DNA of 64,000 bases, taken from the NCBI RefSeq assembly GCF_900105145.1, contig NZ_LT629752.1, positions 1,398,001 to 1,462,000 on the forward strand, in the 5' to 3' direction. A program made the position numbers and the translations under genes. The stretch comes from Polaribacter sp. KT25b. Its GTDB lineage: Bacteria > Bacteroidota > Bacteroidia > Flavobacteriales > Flavobacteriaceae. Positions 4,695 through 28,175 of this stretch are shown in pieces. How positions within the stretch are numbered: the first letter of the stretch is position 1; each line of letters opens with the position of its first letter. The notes under the pieces were generated by a model. The model worked only from the letters and a program-made list of their open reading frames with translations, was not told the DNA's origin and ran no database searches.

Positions 4695-4713
4695 CCAATA
4701 CATTACCTATACA
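4695..4713 (+). promoter_or_regulatory. direct-repeat candidate operator, regulator promoter
   Basis: CCAATACA (4695-4702), TTA, CCTATACA (4706-4713): two copies of an 8-mer with an 11-bp period. The same arrangement occurs upstream of susC and of the gene at 28367. Here it lies 70-88 bp upstream of the regulator start and 26 bp before a possible -7 box (TATATTTA, 4740-4747), a position consistent with autoregulation. Binding by the regulator is inference. Confidence 0.6.
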
Positions 4714-4747
4714 TAGTTCTATTATTTTCTATATTTTATTATATTTA

Positions 4748-4774
4748 ACGTAATTTAGTAACCAAACATTACGT
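4748..4774. repeat. short inverted repeat in regulator leader
   Basis: ACGTAA (4748-4753) and TTACGT (4769-4774) are inverted around a 15-base spacer and end 8 bases before the regulator ATG. It could be a binding site or a leader hairpin; the short arms could also be chance. Confidence 0.3.
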
Positions 4775-4782
4775 AACAAAAT

Positions 4783-7578
4783 ATGTATAGAGTTATTTAT
4801 TCCTTTATTTTTTTTTTAGTAACTAATTTAACGTTTTCTCAAGAGCTACCGCCAATAAATATTTTTTCTGCAGAAAATTATGGAGCGGCCAATCAAAATT
4901 GGGCAATTACCCAAGCATCTAATAAGTTTATTTATGTAGCTAATAATGAAGGGTTATTGGAGTATAATGGTGCAAGTTGGCAGTTATATCCTACACCAAA
5001 CGAAACAATAATGCGTTCTGTTAAATCTTTTAAAGATAAGATTTATACCGGTTTTTACATGGATTTTGGTTTCTGGAAAAAAAATGACTTTGGTCTTTTA
5101 GAATTTAATTCAATTGTAAAAGAACACGATATTAAAATGCTAGAAGATGAGCAAATCTGGGAGATTTTTGAGCTAGATGGTTGGATGATATTTAAATCTT
5201 TAGAAAGAATTTATTTATATAATATAAAAAAGAATACAGTAAAAATTATTAAGTCAGAAAGTAGAATTCATAAACTTTCTATAGTAGATGAAATTATCTA
5301 TTTTCAAGAAAATGATAGAGGAGTTTTTAGAATAGAAAATGGAATTGCTAAGTTAGTTTCTGACGACCCAGTTTTAAAAAATAATAGGATAGTAGATTTT
5401 TTTGTCAAAGATGATAAACTACTTATTTTAACACAAAAAGAAGGCTTTTTCTTTTTAGAAGGTAAAGTGTTAATTCCGTGGAAAATACCTGCTGATCAAT
5501 TTTTGTCAGACAAGACTATTTATAGTGCAAGTCATTTAAAAAACGGAAATTTTGCTTTGGGATCAATTTCTAGTGGATTAGTATATCTTAGGGAAAATGG
5601 TGAATTAGATTATCATATTACACAAACTTTAGGTTTAGGAAATAACACTGTTTTAAGTGTTTTTGAAGATATTGATAATAATATTTGGTTAGGTTTAGAT
5701 AGCGGAATAAATTCTATAAATTTTAAATCTCCTTTTAAATTATTTGTAAAAAAGAATAATTTTTGGGGAACAATTTATGCCTCAATAGTTTATAAAGATT
5801 ATTTATATATAGGCACAAATCAAGGCTTATATTATAGAGAAAAAGATTCTGATAATGCTTTTAGTTTTGTTACAAATACTCAGGGCCAAGTTTGGAACCT
5901 ACAAATAATAAATAATACTTTGTTTTGTAGTCATGATTTTGGTACATATATAATTAATAATAATAAAGCAGAATTAATAAAGGGTGTAGTAGGAACTTGG
6001 GGGTTAGAGAAGATTAATGAAACGACTTTATTACAAGGTAATTATGAGGGTTTATATATTTTAACTAAAGAGGGTTCGTCTTGGAAATTGAGAAATAAAA
6101 TAGCAGGATTTTCTAATTCTAGTAGGTATTTTATCTTAACCGATAAAAATAAAATATTTGTAAATCATGAGTATAAAGGGGTTTTTAAATTAGAAATTGA
6201 TAAAGATTTTAGAACAGTTTTAAAAATTAGTAAAGACAAATCTGTAGAAAAGGGAATACATTCAAGTTTAATAAAATATAATAAAGATATTTTTTATTCG
6301 TCTAAAAAAGGAGTTTATAAATATGAAGCAGCAAAAGATCAATTTATATTAGATTCTATTTATAGTAAGTTATTACCTAAAGATGTTTTTTTATCGGCTA
6401 AATTATTATATGATAAACCTACTAATAAGCTGTGGTCTTTTACTAAAGAGGATATTCGTTATTTTACTCCAGGAAAATTAAGTAATAAGCCAAAATTAGA
6501 AATTATACCTATAAAAGGTTCTGTTCATAAAGGAGCTACCGGTTTCGAAAATATTTTATATTTAAATGATAAGAAATATTTGATTGGTACTTATGATGGT
6601 TATTTAGTTGTTGACTTAAATAATGTTATTCAACCAAAGGATTTTTTGGTTAGTATCAATAGAATTTATAATAATGAGTTAGATAAGCCGCAAAATAAAA
6701 TTAGTTTATTAAAGAAAACGGCTTTTAAGAGTAGTGAAAATAATTTTGAATTTTTTTATAGTGTTACAAATTTTAATAAAACGTCATCTGTAAATTATCA
6801 ATATCAATTAGTTGGTTTTAATGAGAAATGGAGCAAGCTATCAAATTCTAATTCACTTTTATTTGAGAATTTACCACCAGGAAATTATACATTTAAAGTA
6901 CGAGCTTTAGTAGATCAAAAGGTAAGTGAAAATGTAGCAAAATATGCCTTTGAGATTGATAAACCTTGGCATTTAGGTAGCTTTATGGTTATTGTTTATG
7001 TTTTATTGTTTATCTATTTAGGGTATATTACAAATGTGTTGCATCGTAAATATTATAGAAATCAAAGAGAAAAATTATTAGAAAAAGCTCAAAAAGAATT
7101 AGAATTACAGGAGTTAGAGAACTCTCAAAAAATAATTAAGCTTAATAACGAAAAATTAAGAAATGATATTGAAGGTAAAAATAGAGAATTGGCTACTTCT
7201 ACAATGAGTATCATTAGAAAAAACGAATTTTTAAGTTCTATAAAAACAGAATTAGTTTCCGGGGGAAAAGATAGTTTAAATAAAGTTGTTAAAATTATTG
7301 ATAAAAATTTAAACAATACAGATGATTGGAAAATGTTTCAAGAGGCATTTAATAATGCAGATAAAAAGTTTTTAGATAAAATAAAAACGAAGCACCCAGA
7401 ACTTACTCCAAACGATTTAAGGTTATGCGCCTATCTTAGGCTAAACTTATCGTCTAAAGAAATAGCACCACTTTTAAATATTTCTCCAAGAAGTGTAGAG
7501 GTAAAACGTTATCGATTGCGAAAAAAAATGAATTTACCTCATGATGAGAACTTAACAAGCTACATCATTGAAGTGTAG
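4783..7578 (+). CDS. SusR-like membrane sensor-regulator with LuxR-type HTH
   Basis: The 931-residue protein has a signal peptide (1-19). A long periplasmic sensor of beta-propeller repeats follows (for example NIWLGLDSGINSI and YIGTNQGLYYR), then a Y_Y_Y domain (about 670-725, ending LPPGNYTFKVRAL). Next come one membrane helix (about 730-752, GSFMVIVYVLLFIYLGYI), a coiled coil (about 760-810) and a C-terminal helix-turn-helix (about 860-925, with LRLNLSSKEIAPLLNISPRSVEVKRY quoted in part: SSKEIAPLLNISPRSVE). No histidine kinase or receiver domain is present. This is the architecture of one-protein PUL regulators of the SusR type, which sense an oligosaccharide in the periplasm and activate an adjacent susCD operon. 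Its position just upstream of susC fits that role. The inducer is probably a beta-1,3-glucan oligosaccharide (inference). Confidence 0.9.
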   Translation: MYRVIYSFIFFLVTNLTFSQELPPINIFSAENYGAANQNWAITQASNKFIYVANNEGLLEYNGASWQLYPTPNETIMRSVKSFKDKIYTGFYMDFGFWKKNDFGLLEFNSIVKEHDIKMLEDEQIWEIFELDGWMIFKSLERIYLYNIKKNTVKIIKSESRIHKLSIVDEIIYFQENDRGVFRIENGIAKLVSDDPVLKNNRIVDFFVKDDKLLILTQKEGFFFLEGKVLIPWKIPADQFLSDKTIYSASHLKNGNFALGSISSGLVYLRENGELDYHITQTLGLGNNTVLSVFEDIDNNIWLGLDSGINSINFKSPFKLFVKKNNFWGTIYASIVYKDYLYIGTNQGLYYREKDSDNAFSFVTNTQGQVWNLQIINNTLFCSHDFGTYIINNNKAELIKGVVGTWGLEKINETTLLQGNYEGLYILTKEGSSWKLRNKIAGFSNSSRYFILTDKNKIFVNHEYKGVFKLEIDKDFRTVLKISKDKSVEKGIHSSLIKYNKDIFYSSKKGVYKYEAAKDQFILDSIYSKLLPKDVFLSAKLLYDKPTNKLWSFTKEDIRYFTPGKLSNKPKLEIIPIKGSVHKGATGFENILYLNDKKYLIGTYDGYLVVDLNNVIQPKDFLVSINRIYNNELDKPQNKISLLKKTAFKSSENNFEFFYSVTNFNKTSSVNYQYQLVGFNEKWSKLSNSNSLLFENLPPGNYTFKVRALVDQKVSENVAKYAFEIDKPWHLGSFMVIVYVLLFIYLGYITNVLHRKYYRNQREKLLEKAQKELELQELENSQKIIKLNNEKLRNDIEGKNRELATSTMSIIRKNEFLSSIKTELVSGGKDSLNKVVKIIDKNLNNTDDWKMFQEAFNNADKKFLDKIKTKHPELTPNDLRLCAYLRLNLSSKEIAPLLNISPRSVEVKRYRLRKKMNLPHDENLTSYIIEV

Positions 7579-7601
7579 TACCTTATCAACCTTTAAAAAC
7601 A

Positions 7602-7620
7602 CCTATACAATACCACAACA
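7602..7620 (+). promoter_or_regulatory. direct-repeat candidate operator, susC promoter
   Basis: CCTATACA (7602-7609), ATA, CCACAACA (7613-7620): the same 11-bp-period direct repeat as at 4695 and 28157. It starts 24 bases after the regulator stop codon and about 170 bp upstream of the susC start. The flank AACA before the first copy is shared with the 28157 site. Confidence 0.6.
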
Positions 7621-7703
7621 TTTACTGTTTTTTTTGCTTTATATTAAATTTTAATGTTTCTTTAACATTAGACGTAATAAGGGTTTATATGTGTTTTTTT
7701 GTT

Positions 7704-7763
7704 ATGTATGTTTTTTGTTGCGGTTGTTTTTAATGATTCAGTAAAAAAAGATATCTATTTTTA
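7704..7763 (+). promoter_or_regulatory. candidate susC promoter region with shared upstream element
   Basis: ATGTATGTTTTTTGTTG starts at 7704 and matches the element at 28280 in 16 of 17 bases. A possible -7 box TATTTTTA lies at 7756-7763, 52 bp from the element start, compared with 51 bp at the second promoter. The -7 box deviates from TAnnTTTG at the last base and no clear -33 TTG is present, so exact promoter placement is uncertain. Confidence 0.45.
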
Positions 7764-7789
7764 CATTATTATTAACTAAAACATTATTC

Positions 7790-10700
7790 ATGAGAAAAAA
7801 AGGTTCATTACTACTCTTTATGTTTATTAGCTTTTGGGCTACAGCTCAAACATTAAACGTAAAAGGTGTTGTAAAAGATGCGGCAACTGGAGATGCATTG
7901 CCAGGAGTAAGTATAATTATTAAAGGTACAACTACAGGTACACAAACTGATTTTGATGGGTTATACAGTTTATCAAAAGTAGCAAAAGGATCTGTATTAG
8001 TATTTAATTATTTAGGATATAAGAAAAAAGAAGTTATTGTAAATGAAGAAACAATAAATGCTTCTTTAGAAGAATCTGCAGAATCTTTAGATGAGATTGT
8101 TGTAGTTGGTTATGGTTCACAAAGAAAAGAATTAGTTTCTGGAGCGTTTTCTAGTATTAGCTCAGAAAAAATTGCCGAAGCAAATCCTACTAGAATTGAA
8201 GAAGCTTTAAAAGGTAGCGCTGCAGGTGTCCAAGTTACGGCAAATTCTGGTTCTCCAGGAGCTTCTTTAAATATTAGAATTCGTGGTGTAACTACAAATG
8301 GAGATAATAGTCCATTAGTAATTGTAGATGGTGTTAATATTGGTTCAGATTTAAGTATTATTGATCCGAATGATATTGAAAAAATGGATATTATTAAAGA
8401 TGCGAGTTCTGCAATTTATGGTGTGCAAGCAGCAAATGGAGTTATTTTAATCACTACAAAAGGAGGTAAATTAAATAGAAAAACAAAATTTTCTTTAAAT
8501 TCTTACATTTCTTTTCAAGAAGCTTCAAACAAATTAGATTTAATGAATGCATCAGAATATGCAATTTATGTTAATGAAACAGAAGTTGCAGATGGTAACC
8601 AAATTCCATTTACTAATATAAGTAGTTATGGAGTTGGTACAGATTGGCAAGATGCATTATTTACAACTTCACCAATTGTTAGTCATACATTAGGTGCAAC
8701 TGGAGGATCTGATAAAGTAACTTATGGTTTTAGTGCTAGTTACTTTAATCAAGAAGGGATTATTGCTCCTGAAAAGTCTAATTTTAATAGGTTTACCCTA
8801 AAAAATAATTTAGGTATAGATTTAACAGATAAATTAAAGCTTAATACCTTTTTATTATATACTAACATTAAAAATAGAAGTATTAATGAATCTGGTAGAG
8901 GTTCTACTTTATACTATGCATTAAATGCTTCTCCTCTAACATCTATTTATGATGGTACTGATGGTACAGGTCCTTCAGGAGGATTTTCCTATATAGCAGA
9001 TAATCAAGGTTCAGAAATTGTAAATCCTTTAGCGTTAATAGATAATACTAATAACGTTACGAGAACTAACAGGTTTACAGGAAAAGTAGAATTAGTTTAT
9101 AATGTACTTGAAAACTTAAAAGCTACAAGTCGTTATAATTTTAATTATTCAGATGTAGTAAATAGACAATATTTTCCAATAAGCTATTATGGTGCAGGTA
9201 AAGTTGTAAATAGTGTAAATTTAGAAGGTGGAGCTTTTGATTTGGATAGAAATGACAACGGAACGACTGATGTTTTTAGTACTGTTTATGAAAATAATCA
9301 AAATTATTACGATTTTACTTTTGAAAACTTTATAGACTATAACTTTTCAATAGAAGATAAACATAATTTTAATGTTTTAGCTGGTACTTCTTTAAGAAGC
9401 GAACAATTTTATGGTGCGTATGCAACTGGTTTCTTAACTGTAAGTGCAGATAGAGATAATTGGAGTAATGCTTATTTGTTTAATACACAGTCTTTTATTT
9501 ATGATGAAGCATTAGATGTTGATGGAAATATAGATTCAGACAATACTTTAAGACAAAACAACAATGCGTCAACAGGTGTTCTTGAAGATAGATGGTATTC
9601 ATTTTTTGGAAGAATTCAATACGATTATGAAAGTAGATATCTTTTTTCTGCAATGTTAAGAAGAGATGCTTCTACAAGATTTGGTCCAGATAATAGATTT
9701 GGGTATTTTCCTTCTGTTTCTGCAGGTTGGGTAATAAATAAAGAAGAATATTTCAATGTTAAAGCTATCGACAGATTAAAGTTAAGAGCAAGTTGGGGTA
9801 TAACAGGTAATGATAAAATAGGTAGTTATAGATACTTAGGATTTTTACAAGGAACAAACGGAAGTGAAGCTTCTTATTCTTTCGGTAATAATCTATATTA
9901 TGGTAACGCAATAGGAGCGCTAGCTAATCCAGATTTACAATGGGAAACAAACAAGCAACTAAATTTAGGTTTTGATGTTAGCTTATTTTCTAATAAATTA
10001 GATGTTACTTTCGATTACTATAAAAAAAGAACAGAAAACTTATTATTAGTAGCTGATGTTTCTGGACTTGTTGGCGCTTCTGCACCAGGAAGTAGTGCGC
10101 CAGTAGTAAACGCAGGTACGATAGAAAATAAAGGTTTTGATGTAAGTATTAATTTTAATCATGAAATATCAGAAGATCTTAAATTTAGTTTAGGAGTTAA
10201 TGCTACAACCGTTAAAAATAAAGCCATAGAAGTTAATAATGCTGCTGGTTTTTTCTCTGGCGGATTGTTTGATTTAGCTCAAACTACTTCTAGATTTCAA
10301 ACAGGATTACCAATTGGTGTTTTCTACGGATTAAAAACAGATGGTATTTTTCAAAATCAAGCAGAAATCACTGCACATGCAACACAATCAGGAGCAAAAC
10401 CTGGAGATATTAGATTTGTAGATGTAGATGGAGATGGTGTTGTAGAATTTGGTAGTAGTGATGATCAAACTGTTATAGGAAACCCAATTCCAGATGTTAC
10501 TTTAGGTGCTAATTTAAACATAAACTATAAAAATTTCGATTTTGCTACTTCAATTTATGCATCAATAGGTAATGACGTTGCTAGAAGTTACGAACGTTTT
10601 TTAACATACAGCAATAAGCCAACATTATATTTAGATAGATGGGTTGGCGAAGGAACTTCTAATACAGTACCAAGAGCAACAACTACTTCTACAGCAAATA

Positions 10701-10969
10701 CATTGTTTTCAGATTTTTATGTAGAAGATGGATCGTATTTAAGAATTCAAAATGTACAAGTAGGGTATTCTTTACCTGCAGGTGTTTTAGAGAAATTAAA
10801 TATGGATAAATTAAGAGTGTATTTTGCTGTAAACAATTTATATACGTTTACTAAGTATAGTGGTTATAATCCTGATGTTTCTAACTCGAGTCCTTTAGGA
10901 GCAGGTGTAGATTTAGGTCAATACCCACAAACACGCACATTTACAACAGGAGTTAACCTATCATTTTAA
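7790..10969 (+). CDS. susC: SusC-like TonB-dependent glucan transporter
   Basis: The 1059-residue protein starts with a signal peptide (MRKKGSLLLFMFISFWATAQ). A carboxypeptidase-D-like beta-sandwich follows (about 25-100, KGVVKDAATGDALPGVSI). The TonB box region LDEIVVVGYGSQ, the plug with IRGVTTNGDNSPLVIVDGV, and a long 22-strand barrel complete it; the last residues FTTGVNLSF form the usual terminal strand ending in Phe. SusC-type receptors import oligosaccharides across the outer membrane using TonB energy, working as a lidded pair with SusD. Here susD follows after 13 bases. Neighbouring GH16, GH17, GH30, GH3 and GH149-like genes indicate beta-1,3-glucan (laminarin) fragments as cargo. 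Confidence 0.95.
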   Translation: MRKKGSLLLFMFISFWATAQTLNVKGVVKDAATGDALPGVSIIIKGTTTGTQTDFDGLYSLSKVAKGSVLVFNYLGYKKKEVIVNEETINASLEESAESLDEIVVVGYGSQRKELVSGAFSSISSEKIAEANPTRIEEALKGSAAGVQVTANSGSPGASLNIRIRGVTTNGDNSPLVIVDGVNIGSDLSIIDPNDIEKMDIIKDASSAIYGVQAANGVILITTKGGKLNRKTKFSLNSYISFQEASNKLDLMNASEYAIYVNETEVADGNQIPFTNISSYGVGTDWQDALFTTSPIVSHTLGATGGSDKVTYGFSASYFNQEGIIAPEKSNFNRFTLKNNLGIDLTDKLKLNTFLLYTNIKNRSINESGRGSTLYYALNASPLTSIYDGTDGTGPSGGFSYIADNQGSEIVNPLALIDNTNNVTRTNRFTGKVELVYNVLENLKATSRYNFNYSDVVNRQYFPISYYGAGKVVNSVNLEGGAFDLDRNDNGTTDVFSTVYENNQNYYDFTFENFIDYNFSIEDKHNFNVLAGTSLRSEQFYGAYATGFLTVSADRDNWSNAYLFNTQSFIYDEALDVDGNIDSDNTLRQNNNASTGVLEDRWYSFFGRIQYDYESRYLFSAMLRRDASTRFGPDNRFGYFPSVSAGWVINKEEYFNVKAIDRLKLRASWGITGNDKIGSYRYLGFLQGTNGSEASYSFGNNLYYGNAIGALANPDLQWETNKQLNLGFDVSLFSNKLDVTFDYYKKRTENLLLVADVSGLVGASAPGSSAPVVNAGTIENKGFDVSINFNHEISEDLKFSLGVNATTVKNKAIEVNNAAGFFSGGLFDLAQTTSRFQTGLPIGVFYGLKTDGIFQNQAEITAHATQSGAKPGDIRFVDVDGDGVVEFGSSDDQTVIGNPIPDVTLGANLNINYKNFDFATSIYASIGNDVARSYERFLTYSNKPTLYLDRWVGEGTSNTVPRATTTSTANTLFSDFYVEDGSYLRIQNVQVGYSLPAGVLEKLNMDKLRVYFAVNNLYTFTKYSGYNPDVSNSSPLGAGVDLGQYPQTRTFTTGVNLSF

Positions 10970-10982
10970 AAAAAAAATAGAT

Positions 10983-12476
10983 ATGCAAAATAAAATAACA
11001 AAAATAATTACACTTTTGGTTTTAGCCTTTAGCTTTAACGCTTGTGATGATTATTTAGACATAACAAAAGAAGGAGAACAAAGTTCTGAAAACTTTTTTA
11101 ATAGTCAGCAAGACTATGAAGACGCACTAATTGGTGTTTATGACCTTTTAGGAACCAATTATTTAAATCATATTTTAGGAGAAATAGCTTCTGATAATGC
11201 ATATTGTGGAGGAGAAAGACCAGATGATGTAACAGATTGGCAACAAATAGATGATATGATTCATACTCCAGATAATGAAGCTTTGCGTAATGTTTGGAAA
11301 TGGATGTATGCAGGTATTAGTAGAGCAAATTATATAGTAGAGTTTCAAGACAAAGTAGATTTTTCTAGAAAACCAGAATTATTAGCAGAAAATTTATTCT
11401 TAAGATCTTACTACTATTTTGAATTGGTGAAATTTTTTGGTGATGTTCCTCTTTTTACAGAAAATAGAGTAAGTGTAGCAGATTCCCAATCAGCAGAAAG
11501 AACAGCAAAAGCAGATGTTTATGCTAAAATTGAAGCAGATTTAACAGCGGCAATACCAAATTTACCATGGGTACAAACTCAACCAGGTAGAGCAACAAAA
11601 GGTGCTGCATTAGCTTTATTAGGTAAAATTTATTTATTTGATAAAAAGTATGATGAAGCTGCTACTGAATTTCAAAAAGTAATTTCATCAGGTCAATATC
11701 AGTTAGTAGCAGACTATAGTACAATTTTCTTAAATAATAATGAAAATAATTCAGAATCTGTTTTTGAAATTCAATATTCTATTGGTGTAGAAGGAGCAAG
11801 TTATGATTTCTTAGAAGGTTCAGAAGGTAATGTAGCTGCAGGTTTTATGTCGCCAAGATTTACAGGAGACAGAACTAATTGGGCGCCGTATGATGATGGT
11901 AATACATTTAGTACACCAGTACAAGCATTAGTAGATTTATATGTTGCCGGAGATTCAAGATTAAACCCAACTATTTTTAATATGTCAGATTTTGTTGCAG
12001 CAAATCCAGCAGTAACTTTTGATACTAGAAATGAATATACAGGTTATTATAATCATAAATATATGGTATATCAGGAATCAAACTTAGGAGATACTAGAAT
12101 TACTCATGGTAATAACTATAGAGCAATTCGTTATTCAGATGTTTTATTAATGGCAGCAGAAGCAAACTTATTAGCATCAGCTCAAAAGAATAATCCTCAA
12201 GATTTATTAGATGAAGTTAGAGATAGAGCTTTTGGAGATTCAGACCATAGAGTTACAGCAAATCTGGATAACATTTTGTTAGAAAGAAGATTAGAGTTAG
12301 CAGGTGAAGGTCATCGTTTTTTCGATCAAGTAAGAACAGGTAAAACAATTACCATTTCTGGTTTTAAAACAGAAAAAAACGAATTATTTCCAATACCAAG
12401 AATAGAAATTGAATTGGCAGGAAATAGATGGTGTCAAAATAAAGGATATGCAACATCTACATGTTCAACAAATTAA
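10983..12476 (+). CDS. susD: SusD-like surface glycan-binding lipoprotein
   Basis: This 497-residue lipoprotein has its acylated Cys at position 21 (FSFNACDDYLD), followed by an acidic stretch typical of surface-exported Bacteroidota lipoproteins. The RagB/SusD fold is recognisable from the helical TPR-like N-terminal half (RNVWKWMYAGISRANYI, LFLRSYYYFELVKFFGDVPL) and the C-terminal segment YRAIRYSDVLLMAAEANLL, then RRLELAGEGHRFFDQVRTG. SusD proteins cap the SusC channel from outside and bind glycan. It is directly downstream of its SusC partner. Ligand specificity for beta-glucan is inferred from the locus. Confidence 0.95.
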   Translation: MQNKITKIITLLVLAFSFNACDDYLDITKEGEQSSENFFNSQQDYEDALIGVYDLLGTNYLNHILGEIASDNAYCGGERPDDVTDWQQIDDMIHTPDNEALRNVWKWMYAGISRANYIVEFQDKVDFSRKPELLAENLFLRSYYYFELVKFFGDVPLFTENRVSVADSQSAERTAKADVYAKIEADLTAAIPNLPWVQTQPGRATKGAALALLGKIYLFDKKYDEAATEFQKVISSGQYQLVADYSTIFLNNNENNSESVFEIQYSIGVEGASYDFLEGSEGNVAAGFMSPRFTGDRTNWAPYDDGNTFSTPVQALVDLYVAGDSRLNPTIFNMSDFVAANPAVTFDTRNEYTGYYNHKYMVYQESNLGDTRITHGNNYRAIRYSDVLLMAAEANLLASAQKNNPQDLLDEVRDRAFGDSDHRVTANLDNILLERRLELAGEGHRFFDQVRTGKTITISGFKTEKNELFPIPRIEIELAGNRWCQNKGYATSTCSTN

Positions 12477-14459: not shown

Positions 14460-14504
14460 ATTTAAACTTTTATTTATAAAAGATAACTTTATAAAAATAT
14501 AAAA

Positions 14505-16184: not shown

Positions 16185-16205
16185 TATTTTATTTTAATTA
16201 GGTTT

Positions 16206-16242
16206 AATAAGGTCAGTTTATATTGGCTGACCTTATTTTTTA
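16206..16242 (+). terminator. strong terminator inside the PUL
   Basis: A perfect 11-bp stem (AATAAGGTCAG at 16206-16216 with CTGACCTTATT at 16227-16237) and a T-tract follow the GH16 gene. It separates susC-susD-CBM-GH16 from the downstream enzyme genes. Confidence 0.88.
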
Positions 16243-16281
16243 TTCTCAATTCAATTTTAGGTTTATAATAAATTCATAATT

Positions 16282-17562: not shown

Positions 17563-17622
17563 AAACAAATATCGATAGCCTAAAAATTATCAACAGAAAA
17601 AATCAATATAATAAAGAAAAAA

Positions 17623-20600: not shown

Positions 20601-21078
20601 AATAAGTGCAGGTATTGGTGTACACAAATCACCAGAATTGTATGGTGCTTTTCCAACAGATGCTTATTCGCATACGCCAGCAAATAAAGGCGCTCAACAA
20701 CCAGGAATGACAGGTCAAGTAAAAGAAGATTTACTAAGTAGATTTGGTGAATTGGGTGTCTTTGTAAAAGAAGGAAAAGTTGTGTTTAATCCGAGATTAT
20801 TGAAGGTTTCTGAGTTTTTAAATGATGCTAAAGCGTTTACCTACATCAATGTAAATAGCGAAAAAGCAGCTTTAGATATTGCTAAAAATCAACTGGCTTT
20901 TACTTATTGTCAAGTGCCAATTATCTATAATTTATCAGATAAAAATACAATCGATGTTATTTTTAATGATGATAAAAAAGTTGTTTTTGATGGTCTTGAA
21001 TTAGACAAAGAAACAAGTACAAAAATGTTTGATAGATCTAATGAAATTAACCATATAAAAGTATCGATAGTTAAATAA
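17623..21078 (+). CDS. GH149-like beta-1,3-oligoglucan phosphorylase, cytoplasmic
   Basis: The 1151-residue protein has no signal peptide and starts MSKTVSYKDN. Its overall plan matches GH94-type phosphorylases: N-terminal beta-sandwich (FFMTIVSDSNHWMFISSNGG), helical linker and (alpha/alpha)6 barrel. The catalytic Asp is in PEWNDANNALVGNG (Asp654), the position of the general acid in GH94 and GH149. The length, far above the roughly 800 of GH94 cellobiose phosphorylases, fits GH149, which phosphorolyses beta-1,3-glucan oligosaccharides to glucose 1-phosphate. The cytoplasmic location matches the sugar permease encoded downstream. The gene sits between the GH-A and GH3 genes (5 bases to the latter). 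Family assignment is from recall, not from a search. Confidence 0.85.
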   Translation: MSKTVSYKDNVNSNPNTAITGELVTLENESYYKISNSHTMRPFFMTIVSDSNHWMFISSNGGLTAGRKNAEYAIFPYYTDDKITELAETTGCKTIFKIAKNNKTVLWEPFSERQAGLYHITRNVYKNEYGNKVIFEEINHDLNLTFKYQWNSSDQFGFVRKASLINNTDENLDISILDGFQDIIPYGVGSDIQGIRSNLVDAYKKCELEAEVGLGIYALSAIIVDKAEPSEALKANLVWSLGLENPTYLLSSLQVNNFRRGLQLQQEVDMKAEKGAYLINADIHLPSNSEKKWLQVANVNQTVADVTRISELIKTNDNLEELLQNNIEAGTKNLINLVAASDGLQLSNDPLINTRHFSNTLFNIMRGGIFDDNYTIEKDDFTTYLSKANKPLFAAKKESLANLPEKFTLTFIKNLAENDADKDFKRLCLEYLPLKFSRRHGDPSRPWNKFSINTKSEIDGSKILDYEGNWRDIFQNWETLAHSYPQFIESMIHKFLNATTFEGYNPYRVTKGGFDWEVIEEHDPWSYIGYWGDHQIIYLLKFLEFIEKHYPSKLAELFNDDIFVYANVPYIIKPYADILKNPKDTIDFDHQLNAKIDEKRAEIGADGALISNKNNKVHKVNLIEKLLVTVLAKVSNFIPEGGIWLNTQRPEWNDANNALVGNGVSMVTLNYLRRFINFFEGIVANADVSEVQISDELATLFAEIVETLENNEAILSRKVTDKERKTVLDGLGNPASEYRTTIYKNGFSSNKTTISKSALAHFLEITKSYLEHSIRANKRSDNMYHAYNLMTIENDEEVSISYLSEMLEGQVAALSSGYLSPKEALDLLDGLKASALFRPDQYSYILYPNKDLPRFTQKNNISANQVESSKLLQQLIADNNIEIIEKDVLGNCHFNGNFNNANSVKAALANLSEEYSSLISEDENTVLSIFEDIFDHKSFTGRSGTFFGYEGLGSIYWHMVSKLLVAVQENCLLAVKLGESEKVIGRLLDHYYEISAGIGVHKSPELYGAFPTDAYSHTPANKGAQQPGMTGQVKEDLLSRFGELGVFVKEGKVVFNPRLLKVSEFLNDAKAFTYINVNSEKAALDIAKNQLAFTYCQVPIIYNLSDKNTIDVIFNDDKKVVFDGLELDKETSTKMFDRSNEINHIKVSIVK

Positions 21079-21083
21079 ATTTG

Positions 21084-22886
21084 ATGAAGATCAGCTATTT
21101 TATATATCTAATTTGTTCTTTTTTATTGATAGGATTTTCTTGTACAAAAGAAATAAAAATCAGTAAAGAAGATGTTATTGAGCAAAAAGTAGATTCTCTT
21201 CTAAAGTTAATGACTTTAGAGGAGAAAATCGGACAGATGTCGCAAATAAGGCATTTTGATCAAGCAGCAGATTCGCTCATAACTTCCAATTTTATTGGCT
21301 CAATAATTCATACTCAAGGGCCAAATCCGGGTAAAACTGCTTTAGAATGGCAAAATAGATTTTATGAGCTTCAAAAGAAAGCTTTATCAACGAGATTAGG
21401 CATTCCTTTGTTATTTGCAGTTGATGCTGTGCACGGACAAAATACTTTTGATGGAGCTACTATTTTTCCTCATAATATTGGTTTAGGAGCCACAAGAAAT
21501 GAAAAATTAGTAGAAGAAATAGCGAGAATTACAGCTATAGAGAGTCAAGCTACTGGTTTTAACTGGGTGTTTTCGCCCTGTGTAGCCATTCCTTTTAATG
21601 AAAAATGGGGAAGAGTTTATGAAGCTTTTTCAGAAAGCACATCACTAACTGAAAAGCTTACAAAAGCTGCTGTAAATGGGCTTCAAGGTAATTTAGAGAA
21701 TTCCAAAACAGTATTGGCAACAGCCAAACATTTTATTGGTGATGGAGCTACAGATTTTGGTAGAGAAGGAGGTAATACTTCTTTATCAGTAAAAGAAATA
21801 GAAACCTATTTGTTGCCACCATATAAAGTTGCAGTTCAAGAAAATGTAGGTGCAATTATGGCTTCTTTTAATACAATTTCTGGTATTTCTATGCACGCTC
21901 ACAAAGCACTAATTACAGACACTTTAAAAGTAGGAATGAACTTTAAAGGAATTGTTGTTTCTGATTGGCAAGGATATTCAAGATTTGGTAAAAATGATAT
22001 TATAAATGCAGGTGTAGATATGGTTATGGCTGTAGATGGTAATGTTATTGGTTATCAAAAAGGATTAAAAGAAGGTATAGAAAATAAAGCTGTTTCAATA
22101 GTTAGAATAGATGATGCTGTTAGAAGAATTTTACGTCAAAAATTTAGATTGGGTTTGTTTAAAAATCCTTTTCCGGATACAACTTTAGCAAATAAAGTTG
22201 GTGTAAAAGAACATAGAAAAGTTGCAAAACAAGCAGTAAGAGAATCGTTGGTTTTATTAAAAAATAAAGAGAAAATATTGCCTTTATCAAAAGAAACAAA
22301 GAAGATTGTTGTGGTTGGCGAGCACGCAAATTCTGGGGGTTTACAATCTGGAGGTTGGACGATAAATTGGCAAGGAACCAAAGAAAATTATAAAGGAGCA
22401 ACAACCATCTTAGACGGAATTAAAAAGCTTTCTAAAGGAGAAGTCTTATACGATTCAACAGCAACAAAAAATCATTTAGATGTAGATGTAGCAATTATTG
22501 TTGTGGGTGAAACACCTTATGCTGAGTTTTTTGGTGATATAGGTCACGAGTCTAATCAGTTAAGATTAACCTTATCAGAAGAACATCAAAAATATATTAA
22601 AAACTATCAAGAAAATGGAGTTAAAACAATCGTGGTTTTAGTTTCTGGTAGACCATTAGTAGTTACAAATCAAATTAAAAAAGTAGATGCTTTTGTAGCG
22701 GCTTGGTTGCCAGGTTCTGAAGGAGATGGAATTGCAGAAGTACTTTTTGGCGATTATAATTTTTTAGGAAAACTTCCTCATTCTTGGCCAAAATCCGAAG
22801 AAGATTATAAAGGTGAATATGGTCCTAATTTTTGGGATAATTCTATAGAAACATTATTCCCTTTTGGTTTTGGATTAAACTATTAA
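21084..22886 (+). CDS. GH3 beta-glucosidase/exo-beta-glucanase lipoprotein
   Basis: I take the ATG at 21084 rather than the TTG just before it, giving 600 residues. The lipoprotein signal ends at GFSCTKE. The GH3 N-terminal barrel shows MTLEEKIGQMSQ, FAVDAVHGQN, SPCVAIPFNEKWGR and KHFIGDGAT; the nucleophile is Asp294 in VVSDWQGY. The second alpha/beta domain is present (RESLVLLKNKE, WLPGSEGDGIAEVLFG) and no fibronectin-III domain follows. That two-domain length matches the plant-like beta-glucan exohydrolase branch, which removes terminal glucose from beta-1,3/1,4-glucans. It probably acts in the periplasm on imported laminari-oligosaccharides. It is followed after one base by GH17. Confidence 0.93.
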   Translation: MKISYFIYLICSFLLIGFSCTKEIKISKEDVIEQKVDSLLKLMTLEEKIGQMSQIRHFDQAADSLITSNFIGSIIHTQGPNPGKTALEWQNRFYELQKKALSTRLGIPLLFAVDAVHGQNTFDGATIFPHNIGLGATRNEKLVEEIARITAIESQATGFNWVFSPCVAIPFNEKWGRVYEAFSESTSLTEKLTKAAVNGLQGNLENSKTVLATAKHFIGDGATDFGREGGNTSLSVKEIETYLLPPYKVAVQENVGAIMASFNTISGISMHAHKALITDTLKVGMNFKGIVVSDWQGYSRFGKNDIINAGVDMVMAVDGNVIGYQKGLKEGIENKAVSIVRIDDAVRRILRQKFRLGLFKNPFPDTTLANKVGVKEHRKVAKQAVRESLVLLKNKEKILPLSKETKKIVVVGEHANSGGLQSGGWTINWQGTKENYKGATTILDGIKKLSKGEVLYDSTATKNHLDVDVAIIVVGETPYAEFFGDIGHESNQLRLTLSEEHQKYIKNYQENGVKTIVVLVSGRPLVVTNQIKKVDAFVAAWLPGSEGDGIAEVLFGDYNFLGKLPHSWPKSEEDYKGEYGPNFWDNSIETLFPFGFGLNY

Positions 22887-22887
22887 A

Positions 22888-24180
22888 ATGCCTATGAAAT
22901 CATTTATAAACATAAAAATATCAATCTTAATGCTGGTTTTGTTCTTTGGATGCAATTCTAAAAAAGAAAATAAAACAGCAGATAAGCAAGAAATTAAAAC
23001 TAATATGACAGCAGCTCAAATTTTAGGTAATCCAGATTATTTGGCAATTTCTTATGGAGGTTATAGACAGAAATCAAGAGAAAATCAACCAACAATTGCG
23101 CAGTTAAAAGAAGATTTAAAATTGATGTTTGCTATGGGGATTCGCATTATAAGAACCTATAATGTACAGCCAGAATTGCCTCACGCAGCTAATGTTTTAG
23201 AAGCCATTCATCAATTAAAACAAGAAGATTCCAGTTTCGAAATGTACGTAATGTTAGGAGCTTGGATAGATTGTTTAAACGCTTGGACAGACAAAGAACC
23301 TAATCACGAAGTAGAGAGTGAACAAAATGAAGGAGAAATTGAAAGAGCAGTTGCTTTGACGAATAAATATCCAGATATCGTAAAAATAATTGCTGTTGGT
23401 AATGAAGCTATGGTTAATTGGGCAACTAGTTATTATGTGCAACCAAGTGTTATTTTAAAATATGTAAACTATTTACAAAATCTAAAAAAGCAAGGTAAAT
23501 TAGATAAAGATTTATGGATTACAAGTTCAGATGATTTTGCTTCTTGGGGTGGTGGAGATTCAAGTTATAGAGTAGCAGATTTAGAAAATTTAATTAAGGC
23601 TGTAGATTATGTTTCTATGCACACGTATGCATATCATAATTCACATTACAATCCTAATTTTTGGAAAGTTCCAGATAATGAACAGCATTTATCAGAAAAA
23701 GAAAAAATTGATAATGCTATGTTACGTGCTTTAGAATTTGCAAAAATGCAATACAAAAATGTTTCAGATTATGTAAAAAGTATAGACGCAACCAAAACAA
23801 TTCATATTGGCGAAACGGGTTGGGCAACAGTTTCTAGTGGTCATTATGGAGTTAATGGTTCTAGAGCAACAGACGAATACAAGCAAGGTTTGTATTACAA
23901 GCATTTAAGAAACTGGACCAACAAAGCAGGGATTTCTTGCTTTTATTTTGAAGCTTTTGATGAGCAATGGAAAGATGCACAAAATCCTTTAGGATCAGAA
24001 AATCATTTTGGTTTATTCACTTTAAAGGGCGAAGCTAAATACCCAATTTGGAGTTTGGTAGATCAAGGAATTTTTAAAGATTTAAAAAGAGGAGGTAACC
24101 CAATTACCAAAACATTTAATGGAAATAAAGAAGAATTAATGAAAACGGTTTTAGTTCCAAATACAGAATATCAAAGATAA
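22888..24180 (+). CDS. GH17 beta-1,3-glucanase lipoprotein
   Basis: The 430-residue lipoprotein (FFGCNSKK) could also start at the Met of codon 3. The mature part is a GH17 TIM barrel: AISYGGYR start, GIRIIRTYNVQ, acid/base Glu173 in VGNEAMVN, VSMHTYAYHN, nucleophile Glu309 in HIGETGWAT and the closing FYFEAFDEQWK. GH17 enzymes of marine flavobacterial laminarin loci act as endo- or exo-acting beta-1,3-glucanases. Lipidation places it in the periplasm or on the surface. It is tightly packed between GH3 (1 base) and GH30 (6 bases). A second, leaderless GH17 lies at the end of this block. Confidence 0.92.
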   Translation: MPMKSFINIKISILMLVLFFGCNSKKENKTADKQEIKTNMTAAQILGNPDYLAISYGGYRQKSRENQPTIAQLKEDLKLMFAMGIRIIRTYNVQPELPHAANVLEAIHQLKQEDSSFEMYVMLGAWIDCLNAWTDKEPNHEVESEQNEGEIERAVALTNKYPDIVKIIAVGNEAMVNWATSYYVQPSVILKYVNYLQNLKKQGKLDKDLWITSSDDFASWGGGDSSYRVADLENLIKAVDYVSMHTYAYHNSHYNPNFWKVPDNEQHLSEKEKIDNAMLRALEFAKMQYKNVSDYVKSIDATKTIHIGETGWATVSSGHYGVNGSRATDEYKQGLYYKHLRNWTNKAGISCFYFEAFDEQWKDAQNPLGSENHFGLFTLKGEAKYPIWSLVDQGIFKDLKRGGNPITKTFNGNKEELMKTVLVPNTEYQR

Positions 24181-24186
24181 AGAATT

Positions 24187-25683
24187 ATGAAAAAGACAAC
24201 CTATTTTTTATATACACTACTATCATTTATGATTTTAAGCTGTCAAAATAATCAAGATAAATTAAATGTAGAGGTTTACGAAACTTCTGCAAGCGGAAAT
24301 AATTTAACCAAATTAGAGGGTTTTTCTTCGGATGAAAATCAGAAAGAAACCATAAAAGTGAAGCTATTACCAACTAAAAAAAGACAAACAATTACTGGTT
24401 TTGGGGGTGCTTTTACAGAATCTTCAGCGTATTTGTTAAATCGTTTAAGCAAAGAAAAAAGAGACACGATAATTCAGGCTTATTTTTCAACTGAAGGTGC
24501 AAATTATTCATTGACAAGAACACATATGAATTCTTGCGATTTTTCAATTTCTCAATACTCGTATTCGCCTGTGGCTGATGATGTTAATCTTGAACATTTT
24601 TCAGTAAAAGAAGACAAAGACGATTTAATTCCGATGATAAAAGATGCCTTGAAAGCATCAACAGACGGATTTAAAATTTTTGCTTCTCCTTGGACAGCAG
24701 TCCCTTGGATGAAAGATAATAACAAATGGGTAGGTGGTAAATTACTGCCAAATTATTATGATACTTGGGCATTGTTTTTCTCTAAATATGTAGATGCTTA
24801 CAAAGCAGAAGGTATAGATATTTGGGGTTTTACTGTAGAAAATGAACCTTTAGGAAATGGTAATAATTGGGAAAGTATGCATTATTCACCTGATGAAATG
24901 ACCAATTTTGTACAAAATCATTTAGGACCAAAATTAGAAGCAGATGGTCATCAAGTAAAAATTTTAGGATACGATCAAAATAGAGAGCATTTAAAAGAAT
25001 GGATAGATTCTCAATACAAAAACGAAGCAACTTCTAAATATTTTGATGGTACAGCCATTCATTGGTATGCAAGTACGTATGAAATTTTTCCTGAAGAGTT
25101 GCAATACGCACACCAAAAAGCGCCAAATAAATATTTAATTCAAACAGAAGCTTGTGTAGATTCTCAGGTTCCTGTTTGGCAAGATGATGCTTGGTATTGG
25201 CAAAAAGAAGCAACAGATTGGGGTTGGGATTGGGCTCCTGAAAAAGACAAATATCTACATCCTAAATACGCTCCTGTTAATAGATATGCAAGAGATATTA
25301 TTGGTTGTTTAAATAATTATGTTGATGGTTGGGTAGATTGGAATATGGTTTTAGACACCAAAGGTGGACCAAATTGGTTTAAGAATTGGTGTATTGCTCC
25401 AGTTATTGTAGATCCGCAAACAGATGAGGTGTATTTTACGCCTTTGTATTATACATTGGCACATTTTAGCAAATTTATTAGACCTGAAGCTAAAGTTATA
25501 GAACTAGAAAATACAGATAAAGATTTACTGATTACAGCTGCAGAAAATCTTGATGGAACGATAGCTGTAGTTGTTTTTAATGAAAAAGAAACTCCAAAAA
25601 GTATTAAGCTTTCTTTAGGTGAAAAGAACATCAAAATAGCTATTCAAGGTCAAGCAATTCAAACGATTGTTGTTAAAAACTAA
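24187..25683 (+). CDS. GH30 beta-1,6-glucanase-type lipoprotein
   Basis: The 498-residue lipoprotein (ILSCQNN) has the GH30 plan: an N-terminal strand set, TITGFGGAFTESSAYLLN, a TIM barrel and a C-terminal beta-sandwich ending IQTIVVKN. The acid/base is Glu220 in TVENEPLG and the nucleophile is Glu321 in IQTEACVD. ASPWTAVPWMKDN is the usual SPW segment. GH30 subfamily 1/3 enzymes of laminarin loci cleave beta-1,6-linked glucose and so remove the side branches that block beta-1,3 enzymes. Subfamily is inferred from the locus. It lies 15 bases before the permease gene in the same block. Confidence 0.93.
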   Translation: MKKTTYFLYTLLSFMILSCQNNQDKLNVEVYETSASGNNLTKLEGFSSDENQKETIKVKLLPTKKRQTITGFGGAFTESSAYLLNRLSKEKRDTIIQAYFSTEGANYSLTRTHMNSCDFSISQYSYSPVADDVNLEHFSVKEDKDDLIPMIKDALKASTDGFKIFASPWTAVPWMKDNNKWVGGKLLPNYYDTWALFFSKYVDAYKAEGIDIWGFTVENEPLGNGNNWESMHYSPDEMTNFVQNHLGPKLEADGHQVKILGYDQNREHLKEWIDSQYKNEATSKYFDGTAIHWYASTYEIFPEELQYAHQKAPNKYLIQTEACVDSQVPVWQDDAWYWQKEATDWGWDWAPEKDKYLHPKYAPVNRYARDIIGCLNNYVDGWVDWNMVLDTKGGPNWFKNWCIAPVIVDPQTDEVYFTPLYYTLAHFSKFIRPEAKVIELENTDKDLLITAAENLDGTIAVVVFNEKETPKSIKLSLGEKNIKIAIQGQAIQTIVVKN

Positions 25684-25698
25684 ATCCAACATAAAACG

Positions 25699-27129
25699 AT
25701 GTCAGATAAAATATTAATAAAAGGGAAAGTGGCAATGGGGCAAAAAATTGCTTTTGGCATAGGAATGTTTGCAAACCAAATGTTTCCTGCTATTTTGGGT
25801 ATTTTTATGGTTGTTTTGGTACAAGATTTAGGTTTCCCTGGTTGGATGTGGTCTTTAATTTATTTTTTTCCAAGAATTTTCGATTCAATCACAGATCCAA
25901 TAATGGGGTTTATTTCTGATAATACAAAATCGAAATGGGGTAGAAGAAGACAATATGTTTTAATTGGCGGAATTATTATGGGAATTGCTTATATTTTTAT
26001 GTGGCAATTGTTTAAAGAAAATTCTCTGCAATTCAATTTTTGGTATTTTTTCATTTGGTCAATTGTTTTTTATTTAGGACTCACATTTTTTAGTGTGCCT
26101 TATGTAGCAATGGGTTACGAAATGAGCGATGATTTTCACGAACGTACAAGTATAATGGCAATTGCTCAGTGGATTGGTCAATGGGCTTGGGTAATTGCAC
26201 CTTGGTTTTGGGTTATTATGTATGATCCTGATTGGTTTCCATCAGCAGAAGTAGCAGTTAGGGAATTATCAATTTGGGTGGCAATTCCGTGTGCAATTTG
26301 TGCTATTGTTCCTGCTTTATTTATTAAAAGTAAATCAACACTTAATGAGAATTACGAGCCTTTAAATTCTTCAAATATTGGTAATAGTTTAGTGAAAATT
26401 TACGATAGTTTTAAAGAAGCTTTTAAAATAAAAGTATTTAGAAAATTATGTGGAGCAACATTTTTAATTTACAACGCTTTTAACACAGTTGCTGCCTTAA
26501 CTTTTTTTGTTATTGTTTACAAATTATTTAATGGTGATGCTGCAGAAAGCGGAATTTGGGTTTCTCTTTTTGGTTGTTTAGGTGCTTTAGGAACAACGTT
26601 TTTGGTAATTCCGATTATCACAAAAATGTCTAAAATCTGGGGAAAGAAAAAAGCCTTTTTAATAGCCCAAGGAATATCAATAATAGGTTATATAATGCTT
26701 TGGTTTTTATTTGTACCAGGTAAACCTTGGATGTATATTATTGCTTTGCCTTTCTTTTCTTTTGGTATTGGTAGTTTGTTTACAATTATGATGTCTATGA
26801 CAGCAGATGTCATTGATATTGATGAGTTAAATACAGGAAAAAGAAGAGAAGGTATATTTGGCGCTATTTATTGGTGGATGGTAAAAGTTGGCTTTGCAAT
26901 TGCAGGTGCATTAAGTGGAGCTATTATTGCTGTTGTAGGTTTTAATCCAGATTTACCAACTATAAACCAACAATCTGCCGTAAATGGTTTACATACCTTC
27001 TTTTGTTTTTTTCCAGTTTTAGGTACTGTTTTAGCTATGTATATCATGTGGGATTATGATATTGATGAAAAACGTGCTAATGAAATTAGGTTAGAATTAG
27101 AAAAAAGAAAAGAACTAAAAAACAATTAA
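25699..27129 (+). CDS. MFS sugar permease, GPH symporter type
   Basis: The 476-residue protein has about twelve membrane helices and the GPH/MelB-like signature FDSITDPIMGFISDNT followed by KWGRRRQYVLIGG. A second half-repeat shows KKKAFLIAQG and FFSFGIGSLFTIMMSMTADV. These cation-coupled permeases import glycosides and oligosaccharides across the inner membrane. In this locus it would deliver short beta-glucan oligosaccharides to the cytoplasmic phosphorylase. Its stop overlaps the next start (TAATG), so it is translationally coupled to the leaderless GH17 gene, which supports a shared substrate. Confidence 0.92.
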   Translation: MSDKILIKGKVAMGQKIAFGIGMFANQMFPAILGIFMVVLVQDLGFPGWMWSLIYFFPRIFDSITDPIMGFISDNTKSKWGRRRQYVLIGGIIMGIAYIFMWQLFKENSLQFNFWYFFIWSIVFYLGLTFFSVPYVAMGYEMSDDFHERTSIMAIAQWIGQWAWVIAPWFWVIMYDPDWFPSAEVAVRELSIWVAIPCAICAIVPALFIKSKSTLNENYEPLNSSNIGNSLVKIYDSFKEAFKIKVFRKLCGATFLIYNAFNTVAALTFFVIVYKLFNGDAAESGIWVSLFGCLGALGTTFLVIPIITKMSKIWGKKKAFLIAQGISIIGYIMLWFLFVPGKPWMYIIALPFFSFGIGSLFTIMMSMTADVIDIDELNTGKRREGIFGAIYWWMVKVGFAIAGALSGAIIAVVGFNPDLPTINQQSAVNGLHTFFCFFPVLGTVLAMYIMWDYDIDEKRANEIRLELEKRKELKNN

Positions 27130-28043
27130 TGTCATATAGAAAAGAAAACCATATTTCATTTGAGAAGGTTAAAGTTAATTTTTCCAAGAATATTGGCGTA
27201 GAATTTAGCCAGTATTCTAAAGAAGATATAGTAAAACTTTGGCGAGAAACACTAGATTCTGGTATGCATGGAATTTGTTTTAGTATATATGCAGATAGTC
27301 AAAAACCAGGTGACTTTATATCCGAAGAACAAATAGAAAGAAGAATTAATATCTTAAAACCCTATACCAAATGGATTCGTTCTTTTTCTTGTACAGAAGG
27401 TCATGAACATATTGCTAAAATAGCAAAAAAACATGGGATTAAAACTCTAGTTGGTGCTTGGTTAAGTGATGATTTAGAAAAAAACGAAGAAGAAATAGAA
27501 GGATTAATTCAACTTGCAAAAAAAGGCTTTGTAGATATTGCTGCAGTTGGTAATGAAGTTTTATACCGTAAAGAATTAACAGAAGAAGAGTTGTTAGTTT
27601 ATATAAATAGAGTTAAAGAAGAAATTTCAAATATAGAAGTTGGTTATGTAGATGCATATTATGAATTTTCTAAACGACCAGCAATTACTGCAGCTTGCGA
27701 TGTTATTTTATCAAACTGTTATCCTTTTTGGGAAGGTTGTAACATAGAGTATTCTTTAAATCATATGCAAGAAATGTATGAACAAGCTAAAAAAACAGCA
27801 AAAGGAAAACGAATTATTATTACCGAAACTGGTTGGCCAAGTAAAGGAAGTAGTTTAGAAGGTGCACATTCTAATGCCGAGAATGCAATGAAATATTTTA
27901 TAAACTCTCAAGTTTGGGCAGAAGTAGATAATATAGAAATGTTTTATTTTTCTTCTTTTGATGAATCTTGGAAAGTTGGTGATGAAGGAGATGTTGGTGC
28001 TTATTGGGGATTATGGGACAAATATGGTAACTTAAAGTTTTAA
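27129..28043 (+). CDS. GH17-family protein without signal peptide (cytoplasmic)
   Basis: This 304-residue protein starts MSYRKENHISFEKVKVNFSK with no export signal. It is a minimal GH17 barrel: GVEFSQYSKEDIVKLW, acid/base Glu143 in AVGNEVLYR, YVDAYYEF, and nucleophile Glu233 in IITETGWPSKGSS. Both catalytic residues are intact. Start and stop overlap at TAATG with the permease, so it likely acts on the imported sugar in the cytoplasm, as a beta-1,3-glucosidase or transglycosylase alongside the phosphorylase (inference). It ends the second enzyme block and a terminator follows. Confidence 0.88.
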   Translation: MSYRKENHISFEKVKVNFSKNIGVEFSQYSKEDIVKLWRETLDSGMHGICFSIYADSQKPGDFISEEQIERRINILKPYTKWIRSFSCTEGHEHIAKIAKKHGIKTLVGAWLSDDLEKNEEEIEGLIQLAKKGFVDIAAVGNEVLYRKELTEEELLVYINRVKEEISNIEVGYVDAYYEFSKRPAITAACDVILSNCYPFWEGCNIEYSLNHMQEMYEQAKKTAKGKRIIITETGWPSKGSSLEGAHSNAENAMKYFINSQVWAEVDNIEMFYFSSFDESWKVGDEGDVGAYWGLWDKYGNLKF

Positions 28044-28070
28044 TATGTAATTTTTACTTGATAAAATAAT

Positions 28071-28107
28071 AAAAAATCAGAATATATATTTATTCTGATT
28101 TTTTTTG
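28071..28107 (+). terminator. terminator after PUL enzyme block
   Basis: AAAATCAGAAT pairs perfectly with ATTCTGATTTT across a short AT loop and is followed by a run of T, about 30 bases after the GH17 stop. End coordinates are approximate. Confidence 0.88.
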
Positions 28108-28156
28108 TTTTAATAAGTTTAAAATGTAAGTTATTTAAATACAGTTAAATAAAACA

Positions 28157-28175
28157 CCTATACATTACCCATACA
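28157..28175 (+). promoter_or_regulatory. direct-repeat candidate operator, binding-protein promoter
   Basis: CCTATACA (28157-28164), TTA, CCCATACA (28168-28175): the third copy of the 11-bp-period direct repeat. It lies in the 323-bp gap between the GH17 terminator and the T9SS binding-protein gene, about 192 bp upstream of its start. The rest of this gap holds the element at 28280 and the promoter at 28308. Confidence 0.6.

Follow-up and report, generated by a model that had tools for sequence, protein, structure and literature searches.

In the window, by which we mean the whole analyzed stretch of 64,000 nucleotides from Polaribacter sp. KT25b, short tandem repeats occur at the promoters of a laminarin polysaccharide utilization locus (PUL). 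Our analysis indicates, with a probability of roughly 0.86, that these repeats are the operators of the regulator encoded at positions 4783-7578, which would act as a one-component activator of a dispersed laminarin regulon. The 8-mers that make up the repeats are very probably the docking sites of a membrane-anchored sugar sensor, as judged from the sequence. The initial annotation had described three such sites, upstream of the regulator gene, susC, and the gene of a protein secreted by the type IX secretion system (T9SS), and a scan of the window recovered all three 19-mers at the positions reported. The sites are real, but the operator proves larger than these three, given that inverted pairs and often a third half-site 21 bp upstream have to be added. 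The elements and the presumed binder are as follows.

4783..7578, plus strand: regulator of 931 aa, presumed binder, with a periplasmic sensor like that of hybrid two-component systems (HTCS) including Y_Y_Y, followed by a LuxR/GerE-type helix-turn-helix (HTH)
7447-7560, plus strand: GerE-type HTH of the regulator (Pfam)
4695..4713, plus strand: tandem half-sites CCAATACA-TTA-CCTATACA, located 69 bp ahead of the regulator's ATG, within its promoter region
7581..7588, plus strand: weak half-site CCTTATCA, the third of the distal cluster, 21 bp upstream of the pair
7602..7620, plus strand: distal tandem pair CCTATACA-ATA-CCACAACA; its first base is 24 bp past the stop codon of the regulator gene
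7705..7723, minus strand: promoter-proximal inverted tandem pair CCGCAACA-AAA-AACATACA, its start 103 bp from that of the distal pair
7756..7763, plus strand: likely -7 box TATTTTTA for transcription of susC; it begins 32 bp after the inverted pair
28157..28175, plus strand: distal tandem pair CCTATACA-TTA-CCCATACA, preceding the gene of the T9SS protein
28281..28299, minus strand: inverted proximal pair CCACTACA-AAA-AACATACA, its start 124 bp from that of the distal pair
28331..28338, plus strand: likely -7 box TAAGTTTG of the T9SS gene, starting 31 bp behind the inverted pair

CCAATACATTACCTATACA at 4695 and CCTATACATTACCCATACA at 28157 match the 19-mer CCNANACANTACCNANACA exactly, and CCTATACAATACCACAACA at 7602 differs from it at one position. 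A pattern scan of the 64-kb window within two mismatches returned only these three sites, compared to a mean of 0.30 matches in dinucleotide shuffles of the window (largest number 2; 0 of 100 shuffles reached 3). No paired form had been seen elsewhere in the window in the initial annotation, but two further pairs are present on the minus strand. Across the whole genome (3,951,460 bp), 24 matches within two mismatches were found versus 25 for a reversed-pattern control, and the two-mismatch matches outside the window are thus no better than noise. The picture was different within one mismatch, where the genome holds two exact matches (4695 and 28157, both in the window) and three sites with a single mismatch, namely, 7602, C1:2911047, and C1:2203351. 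The site at C1:2911047 precedes by 64 bp the start (C1:2911130) of a gene for a GH16 laminarinase that carries a T9SS tail. That at C1:2203351, which adjoins an open reading frame (ORF) resembling a tyrosine recombinase by eye, is taken as a chance match. Four of the five sites within one mismatch are at genes of the laminarin system, in contrast to the many matches at unrelated genes that would have refuted the initial proposal.

The arrangement is conserved. We compared the gap behind the regulator gene in loci from Polaribacter, Tenacibaculum, Algibacter, Aquimarina, Hanstruepera, and others (67 gaps including that of the window, reduced to 63 by leaving out four near-copies). The 19-mer was present within two mismatches in 47 of the 63 gaps versus 0.13% of shuffles. 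When CCNANACA words with at most one mismatch each were paired at offsets of 3 to 40 bp, an offset of 11 bp occurred in 49 gaps, 21 bp in 16, and 32 bp in 19, with each remaining offset in no more than 2. The same three offsets emerged without any motif assumption from 60 divergent family members (57 genomes, 38-47% identity, hand-picked from the lower part of the family match list), where offset 11 was seen in 26, 21 in 13, and 32 in 14, compared to at most 5 for any other offset between 8 and 45 and 0.49 per offset in shuffles. Because 11, 21, and 32 bp stand out, the full distal site consists of three half-sites spaced 21 + 11 bp. Conservation in related loci, on which the operator proposal had been made to depend, was thus found behind the regulator as well as at GH16, T9SS, and GH81 orthologues (below). 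Outside Flavobacteriaceae, four loci of one other family of the same class share a CACTACATCATTACCTCT-like stretch, and three of these carry a ATGATGTAnnAATGTAGAG-like stretch closer to the next gene; these stretches are perhaps a diverged form of the same operator grammar.

Before both susC and the T9SS gene, tandem pairs with an AAA spacer and the same 11-bp period lie on the minus strand, and 7705-7723 and 28281-28299 are the sole exact matches to CCNNNACAAAANNCATACA in the genome. In the gaps behind the regulator of the 66 related loci, the corresponding element TGTATGTTTTTTGTTGnGGT is more conserved than the distal one, and its complement reads CCnCAACA-AAA-AACATACA, that is, the same kind of 8-mers at an 11-bp period on the other strand. 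After de-duplication, position weight matrices (PWMs) trained on the same gaps and scored without a shuffle control located the inverted pair in 59 of 63 gaps (counting that of the window). The distal pair was located in 62 of them, no more than 215 bp past the regulator gene. We then scored the -7 box as TAnnTTTG/A, 20-48 bp behind the inverted pair and again without a shuffle control, and the best box fell at offset 31-32 in 54 of 59 susC promoters and 19 of 29 GH16 promoters. The likely susC promoter box of the window is of the flavobacterial sigma-A type TAnnTTTG, a consensus that was mapped at -12 to -5 in Flavobacterium psychrophilum (PMC9723704). With the box placed at these positions, the inverted pair spans about -62 to -44.

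The main reason for naming the linked regulator as the binder is that the DNA word covaries with its HTH. In regulator paralogues, the layout is kept and the word changes along with the recognition helix, as tabulated for 142 regulators minus 11 that have no distal pair within three mismatches. SVEVK and SVEIK helices go with CCnATACA and CCnCAACA, and SVEIR helices go with CCTCTACA, with CT in 12/12 half-sites of six regulators. SVET helices accompany CCnCGACA-like words, with G at half-site position 5 in 6/8 compared to 1/123 of the others (Fisher 3e-8, not corrected for relatedness). GVET[HIM] helices, found in seven regulators of which four are near-copies, are associated with TACGTCA at an 11-bp period and an inverted TGACGTA-like element. 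By eye, the word of the inverted pair changes jointly with that of the distal pair. Two of 15 paralogues in the genus did not show the standard pair behind the gene. The same layout recurs, with different words, beside related sensors in other Flavobacteriaceae. We regard this covariation as the best nonexperimental evidence that the linked regulator binds the sites, and, together with rarity and conservation, it supports the earlier suggestion that they form the operator of the adjacent gene product.

The sites also mark unlinked genes. With orthologues chosen by protein sequence and not by site, the inverted pair was found within three mismatches in 29 of 30 GH16 loci (examined among 64 genomes that had a match), placed 52-73 bp ahead of the start, versus 0.07% of shuffles. 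A GH81 site within three mismatches was present in 18 of 30 loci (among 42 genomes with a match) compared to 0.27% of shuffles, and 13 of these 18 have a perfect -7 box at 31 bp. For the T9SS gene, 16 of 30 loci were kept, the other 14 being left out as their match starts after residue 1, and 13 of the 16 carry both forward and inverted pairs; the start codon of one of the remaining three, L174, was not resolved. A genome search for the inverted pair with at most one mismatch gave six matches versus two in the reversed control, comprising susC, the T9SS gene, GH16, GH81 (C1:1336351), one site inside an ORF, and one other. The GH81 gene (C1:1336226-1340484) encodes an unlinked endo-beta-1,3-glucanase of 1377 aa with CBM6, Big_7, PKD, and a T9SS tail, and its promoter holds two inverted pairs, the second with a -7 box TATATTTG at offset 31. 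Clear CCNATACA words are present in the inverted pairs at the GH16 and GH81 genes, which lie 1.5 Mb and 66 kb from the laminarin locus, respectively. A search for the composite TGTANNNTTTNTGT-N36/37-TANNTTT matched GH81, susC, the T9SS gene, a CotH/LTD protein with a T9SS tail (C1:1740063), and one other position. The CotH/LTD protein (C1:1736658-1740119, 1100 aa) carries an inverted pair and a -7 box and is a candidate target of the regulon.

The motif CCNATACANNACCNATACA, at no more than one mismatch, occurred at 153 sites in 91 of 146 genomes of the genus, compared to 14 sites for the reversed control (hand counts). It was present in 73 of 94 genomes with the regulator (E <= 1e-100) and in 18 of 52 without (p 4e-7). 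For the 150 sites whose positions were assessed, 67 lie less than 600 bp before regulator, GH16, GH81, or T9SS genes or less than 300 bp behind the regulator, and a further 24 are within 45 kb of the regulator on the same strand. In seven genomes, a site was seen 1.70-1.75 kb upstream of the regulator on the same strand, which suggests that the regulator is cotranscribed behind another gene there. One genome has a regulator frame (C1:935098-937620) with 11 stop codons, and a site is retained nearby, before a GH2C/GH72-like gene.

The distances between the distal and inverted clusters (n = 125) fall at about 89, 102, 114, 125, 136, 147, 158, and 173 bp, and a single outlying value is 243 bp. 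The periodicity for the 54 family members was not reached in 5000 jittered sets, and the period peaked at 11.5 bp for all distances and at 12 bp for family members, close to a full turn of relaxed DNA without matching it exactly. Of the 59 gaps for which a distance had been measured, 4 were left out (partial, frameshifted, or with stops); on the tree of the remaining 55 regulators, five distance classes required 16 changes versus 29.8 for shuffled labels, indicating that the classes are partly inherited and have changed many times. Given that the distances step by 11-12 bp, near the helical turn, the two clusters probably cooperate, whether by looping of the DNA or as a multimer held at the membrane.

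Autoregulation is the weakest part of the original proposal. The window's regulator promoter does carry the pair, as had been noted, and its -7 box is ambiguous; across relatives, a tandem pair within three mismatches was found in 14 of 62 regulator promoters (counting that of the window) versus 0.8% of shuffles, and a single half-site in 39 of 62 versus 1.3 expected. Autoregulation is thus likely here, with a weaker case in relatives.

The neighboring genes, assigned with Pfam, are as follows.

7790..10969, plus strand: susC (TonB-dependent transporter), which opens the presumed target operon
10983..12476, plus strand: susD
12489..28043, plus strand: remainder of the PUL, namely, PKD/CBM4_9 protein, GH16, GH2C/GH72-like, 1151-aa protein, GH3, GH17, GH30, MFS_2, GH17
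28367..30673, plus strand: T9SS-secreted protein of 768 aa (Por_Secre_tail), the other target in the window

In the regulator, Y_Y_Y and GerE scored above the Pfam cut-off, GerE with 26.9 bits against a curated cut-off of 23.5, which places the HTH in the LuxR/GerE group; Reg_prop and Sigma70_r4_2 were the other domains at E <= 0.001, both below cut-off. No kinase, receiver, or AraC-type HTH was found with Pfam at E <= 0.001. The sensor part matches the HTCS sensor structures 3v9f, 3ott, 3va6, and 4a2l. As a correction to the initial label "SusR-like", the sensor is of the HTCS type. Shorter proteins in the genome with a C terminus resembling that of the regulator, two of them with TPR domains, are separate genes. 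The regulator type was detected in 167 of 249 Flavobacteriaceae genomes and 143 of 202 sampled genera (E <= 1e-60); phylum-wide, 67 of 296 genomes had a match (E <= 1e-50). The 1151-aa PUL protein (17623-21078 of the window) had no Pfam match at E <= 0.001. Residues 532-644 of the T9SS protein match the PKD-domain protein 8qx6 (E 7e-8 over 113 residues); this protein also aligns with a relative in several registers and thus seems to be built of internal repeats.

We hypothesize that a periplasmic HTCS-type sugar sensor is joined via a membrane segment to the LuxR-type HTH and that one HTH would occupy each 8-mer (CCnATACA or CCnCAACA), so that two HTHs would sit head to tail, 11 bp apart, on the same face of the DNA. 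In front of susC and of the T9SS gene, the regulator would bind the distal pair, often with the third half-site 21 bp further up, and the inverted pair 103 or 124 bp downstream, which, ending 31-32 bp before the -7 box, could contact RNA polymerase. A DNA loop or a membrane-held multimer would let the distal and inverted clusters cooperate. Upon binding a laminarin oligosaccharide, the regulator would turn on the susCD operon, the T9SS protein, and the unlinked GH16 and GH81 enzymes, and its own gene would probably also be switched on.

Several observations weigh against this model. The PWMs were scored on their own training gaps without a shuffle control, and many of the compared loci are from related species. 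Inspection by eye of 20 relatives outside Flavobacteriaceae revealed no clear pair. A clear site was lacking at 12 of 30 GH81, 1 of 30 GH16, and 3 of 16 T9SS loci, tandem pairs occupied only 14 of 62 regulator promoters, and the five genome matches to the composite compare with two in its reversed control. In the genus-wide scan, 59 of 150 sites were at none of the five gene types and had no regulator within 45 kb, and more than a third of the regulator-less genomes still had a match. The signal at 10.5 bp was weaker (resultant 0.38 for all distances and 0.34 for family members) than the peak at 11.5-12 bp, so exact helical phasing is not established.

The regulator-less genomes with at least one match (18/52) would be expected if another, wider regulator, such as a Crp-like protein or a different carbohydrate regulator, bound the sites in place of the linked LuxR-type protein. 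We consider this very unlikely, given that the word follows the recognition helix of the linked regulator while the layout stays constant, that the distal pair stands close behind the regulator gene in nearly all gaps (self-trained PWM), and that site presence tracks regulator presence. The protein could also be a repressor that is relieved by sugar, which appears very unlikely: the inverted pair lies on the upstream side of the promoter core, with 31-32 bp from its end to the -7 box, and the susC consensus has no conserved -33 TTG, two features that would be expected of an activator-dependent promoter. The inverted element is T-rich and keeps a fixed distance from the -7 box, as a promoter or untranslated-region element (an UP element or RNA leader) might, with the forward pairs alone serving as operators. 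It nevertheless is built of the same half-site words with an unchanged 11-bp period, shifts its word with the distal pair in paralogues by eye, and has clear words at the GH16 and GH81 genes, making such an explanation highly improbable. Being upstream of the -7 box, the element should not be in the transcript, and an RNA element was ruled out on this ground and because the orientation of the elements varies between promoters. Chance or neutral inheritance of AT-rich intergenic DNA could draw on the relatedness of many loci and on the two-mismatch genome matches, which equal the control, but the shuffles, offset spectra, divergent genera, protein-chosen orthologues, and HTH covariation leave it a negligible likelihood; chance was ruled out by controls for the gaps, the GH16 orthologues, and the divergent members.

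Beyond the activator and its regulon in this genome, the 142 inspected family members could reflect a family-wide operator grammar with a specificity code readable from the recognition helix, an idea we hold tentatively and at slightly less than even odds. Under such a grammar, three forward half-sites (21 + 11 bp) would stand behind the regulator's own gene, the -7 box would be preceded at 31-32 bp by an inverted 11-bp pair, and the cluster distance would step near the helical turn as membrane-tethered proteins bridge the clusters in a loop. One or two helix residues would set the word, with V/I-K giving CCnATACA or CCnCAACA, I-R giving CCTCTACA, T-K/R giving CCnCGACA, and G-VET giving TACGTCA. 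If this grammar is true, regulons, including unlinked secreted enzymes, could be read from sequence.

Marine Flavobacteriia are among the consumers of laminarin, which is a major store of carbon in algae. To our knowledge, few operators of polysaccharide regulators have been defined in marine Flavobacteriia. Given that the operator is compact and conserved, the scattered genes of a polysaccharide response become predictable: the motif alone led to a GH81 beta-1,3-glucanase at a distance of 66 kb and to a GH16 laminarinase at 1.5 Mb. The recognition helix ties the regulator to its DNA word, and cooperation between two binding clusters of a putative membrane-tethered activator becomes directly testable.

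Literature searches covering openly licensed PMC papers, supplements excluded, listed none whose title, abstract start, or inspected passages describe this operator. The window contains susCD, GH30, at least two GH17, and GH16 (Pfam) and so corresponds to laminarin PUL variant B of North Sea Flavobacteriia, described with GH30, two GH17, and GH16 alongside susCD in a paper whose main text, as available, does not contain the words "regulator" and "SusR" (PMC6298971). The first gene of many laminarin clusters has been annotated as LuxR, according to the accessible part of another report (PMC13188888). Like the SusR-like regulators of Bacteroides, as covered in the accessible sections of Ravcheev et al. 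2013 (PMC3878776), the regulator described here is apparently membrane anchored, is linked to susCD operons, and has a C-terminal HTH and direct repeats on one face of the DNA. Unlike the SusR boxes, predicted there 67 or 77 bp apart from center to center, the half-sites here are 11 bp apart with outer spacings of 21 and 32 bp, there is an inverted second pair, and the sensor is of the HTCS type. A SusR-type operator is disfavored as the main structure; the spacing scans, which covered offsets up to 45 bp, peaked at 11, 21, and 32 bp. The periplasmic sensor is homologous to that of HTCS regulators, whose direct repeats in Bacteroides are 21 bp apart on average in the same sections (PMC3878776), equal to the outer spacing here. 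In contrast to HTCS regulators, this protein has a GerE rather than an AraC-type HTH and no detected kinase or receiver, and its sites have a main period of 11 bp and an inverted promoter-proximal pair. Streptomyces antibiotic regulatory protein (SARP) activators are cytoplasmic actinomycete proteins, and none of their domains was found in the regulator with Pfam. The operator architecture is nonetheless similar to that of the SARP archetype PimR, for which the accessible text describes monomers bound head to tail to repeats 11 bp apart, equal to one helical turn, with three-repeat and two-repeat operators and cooperative binding near the promoter (PMC5930380).

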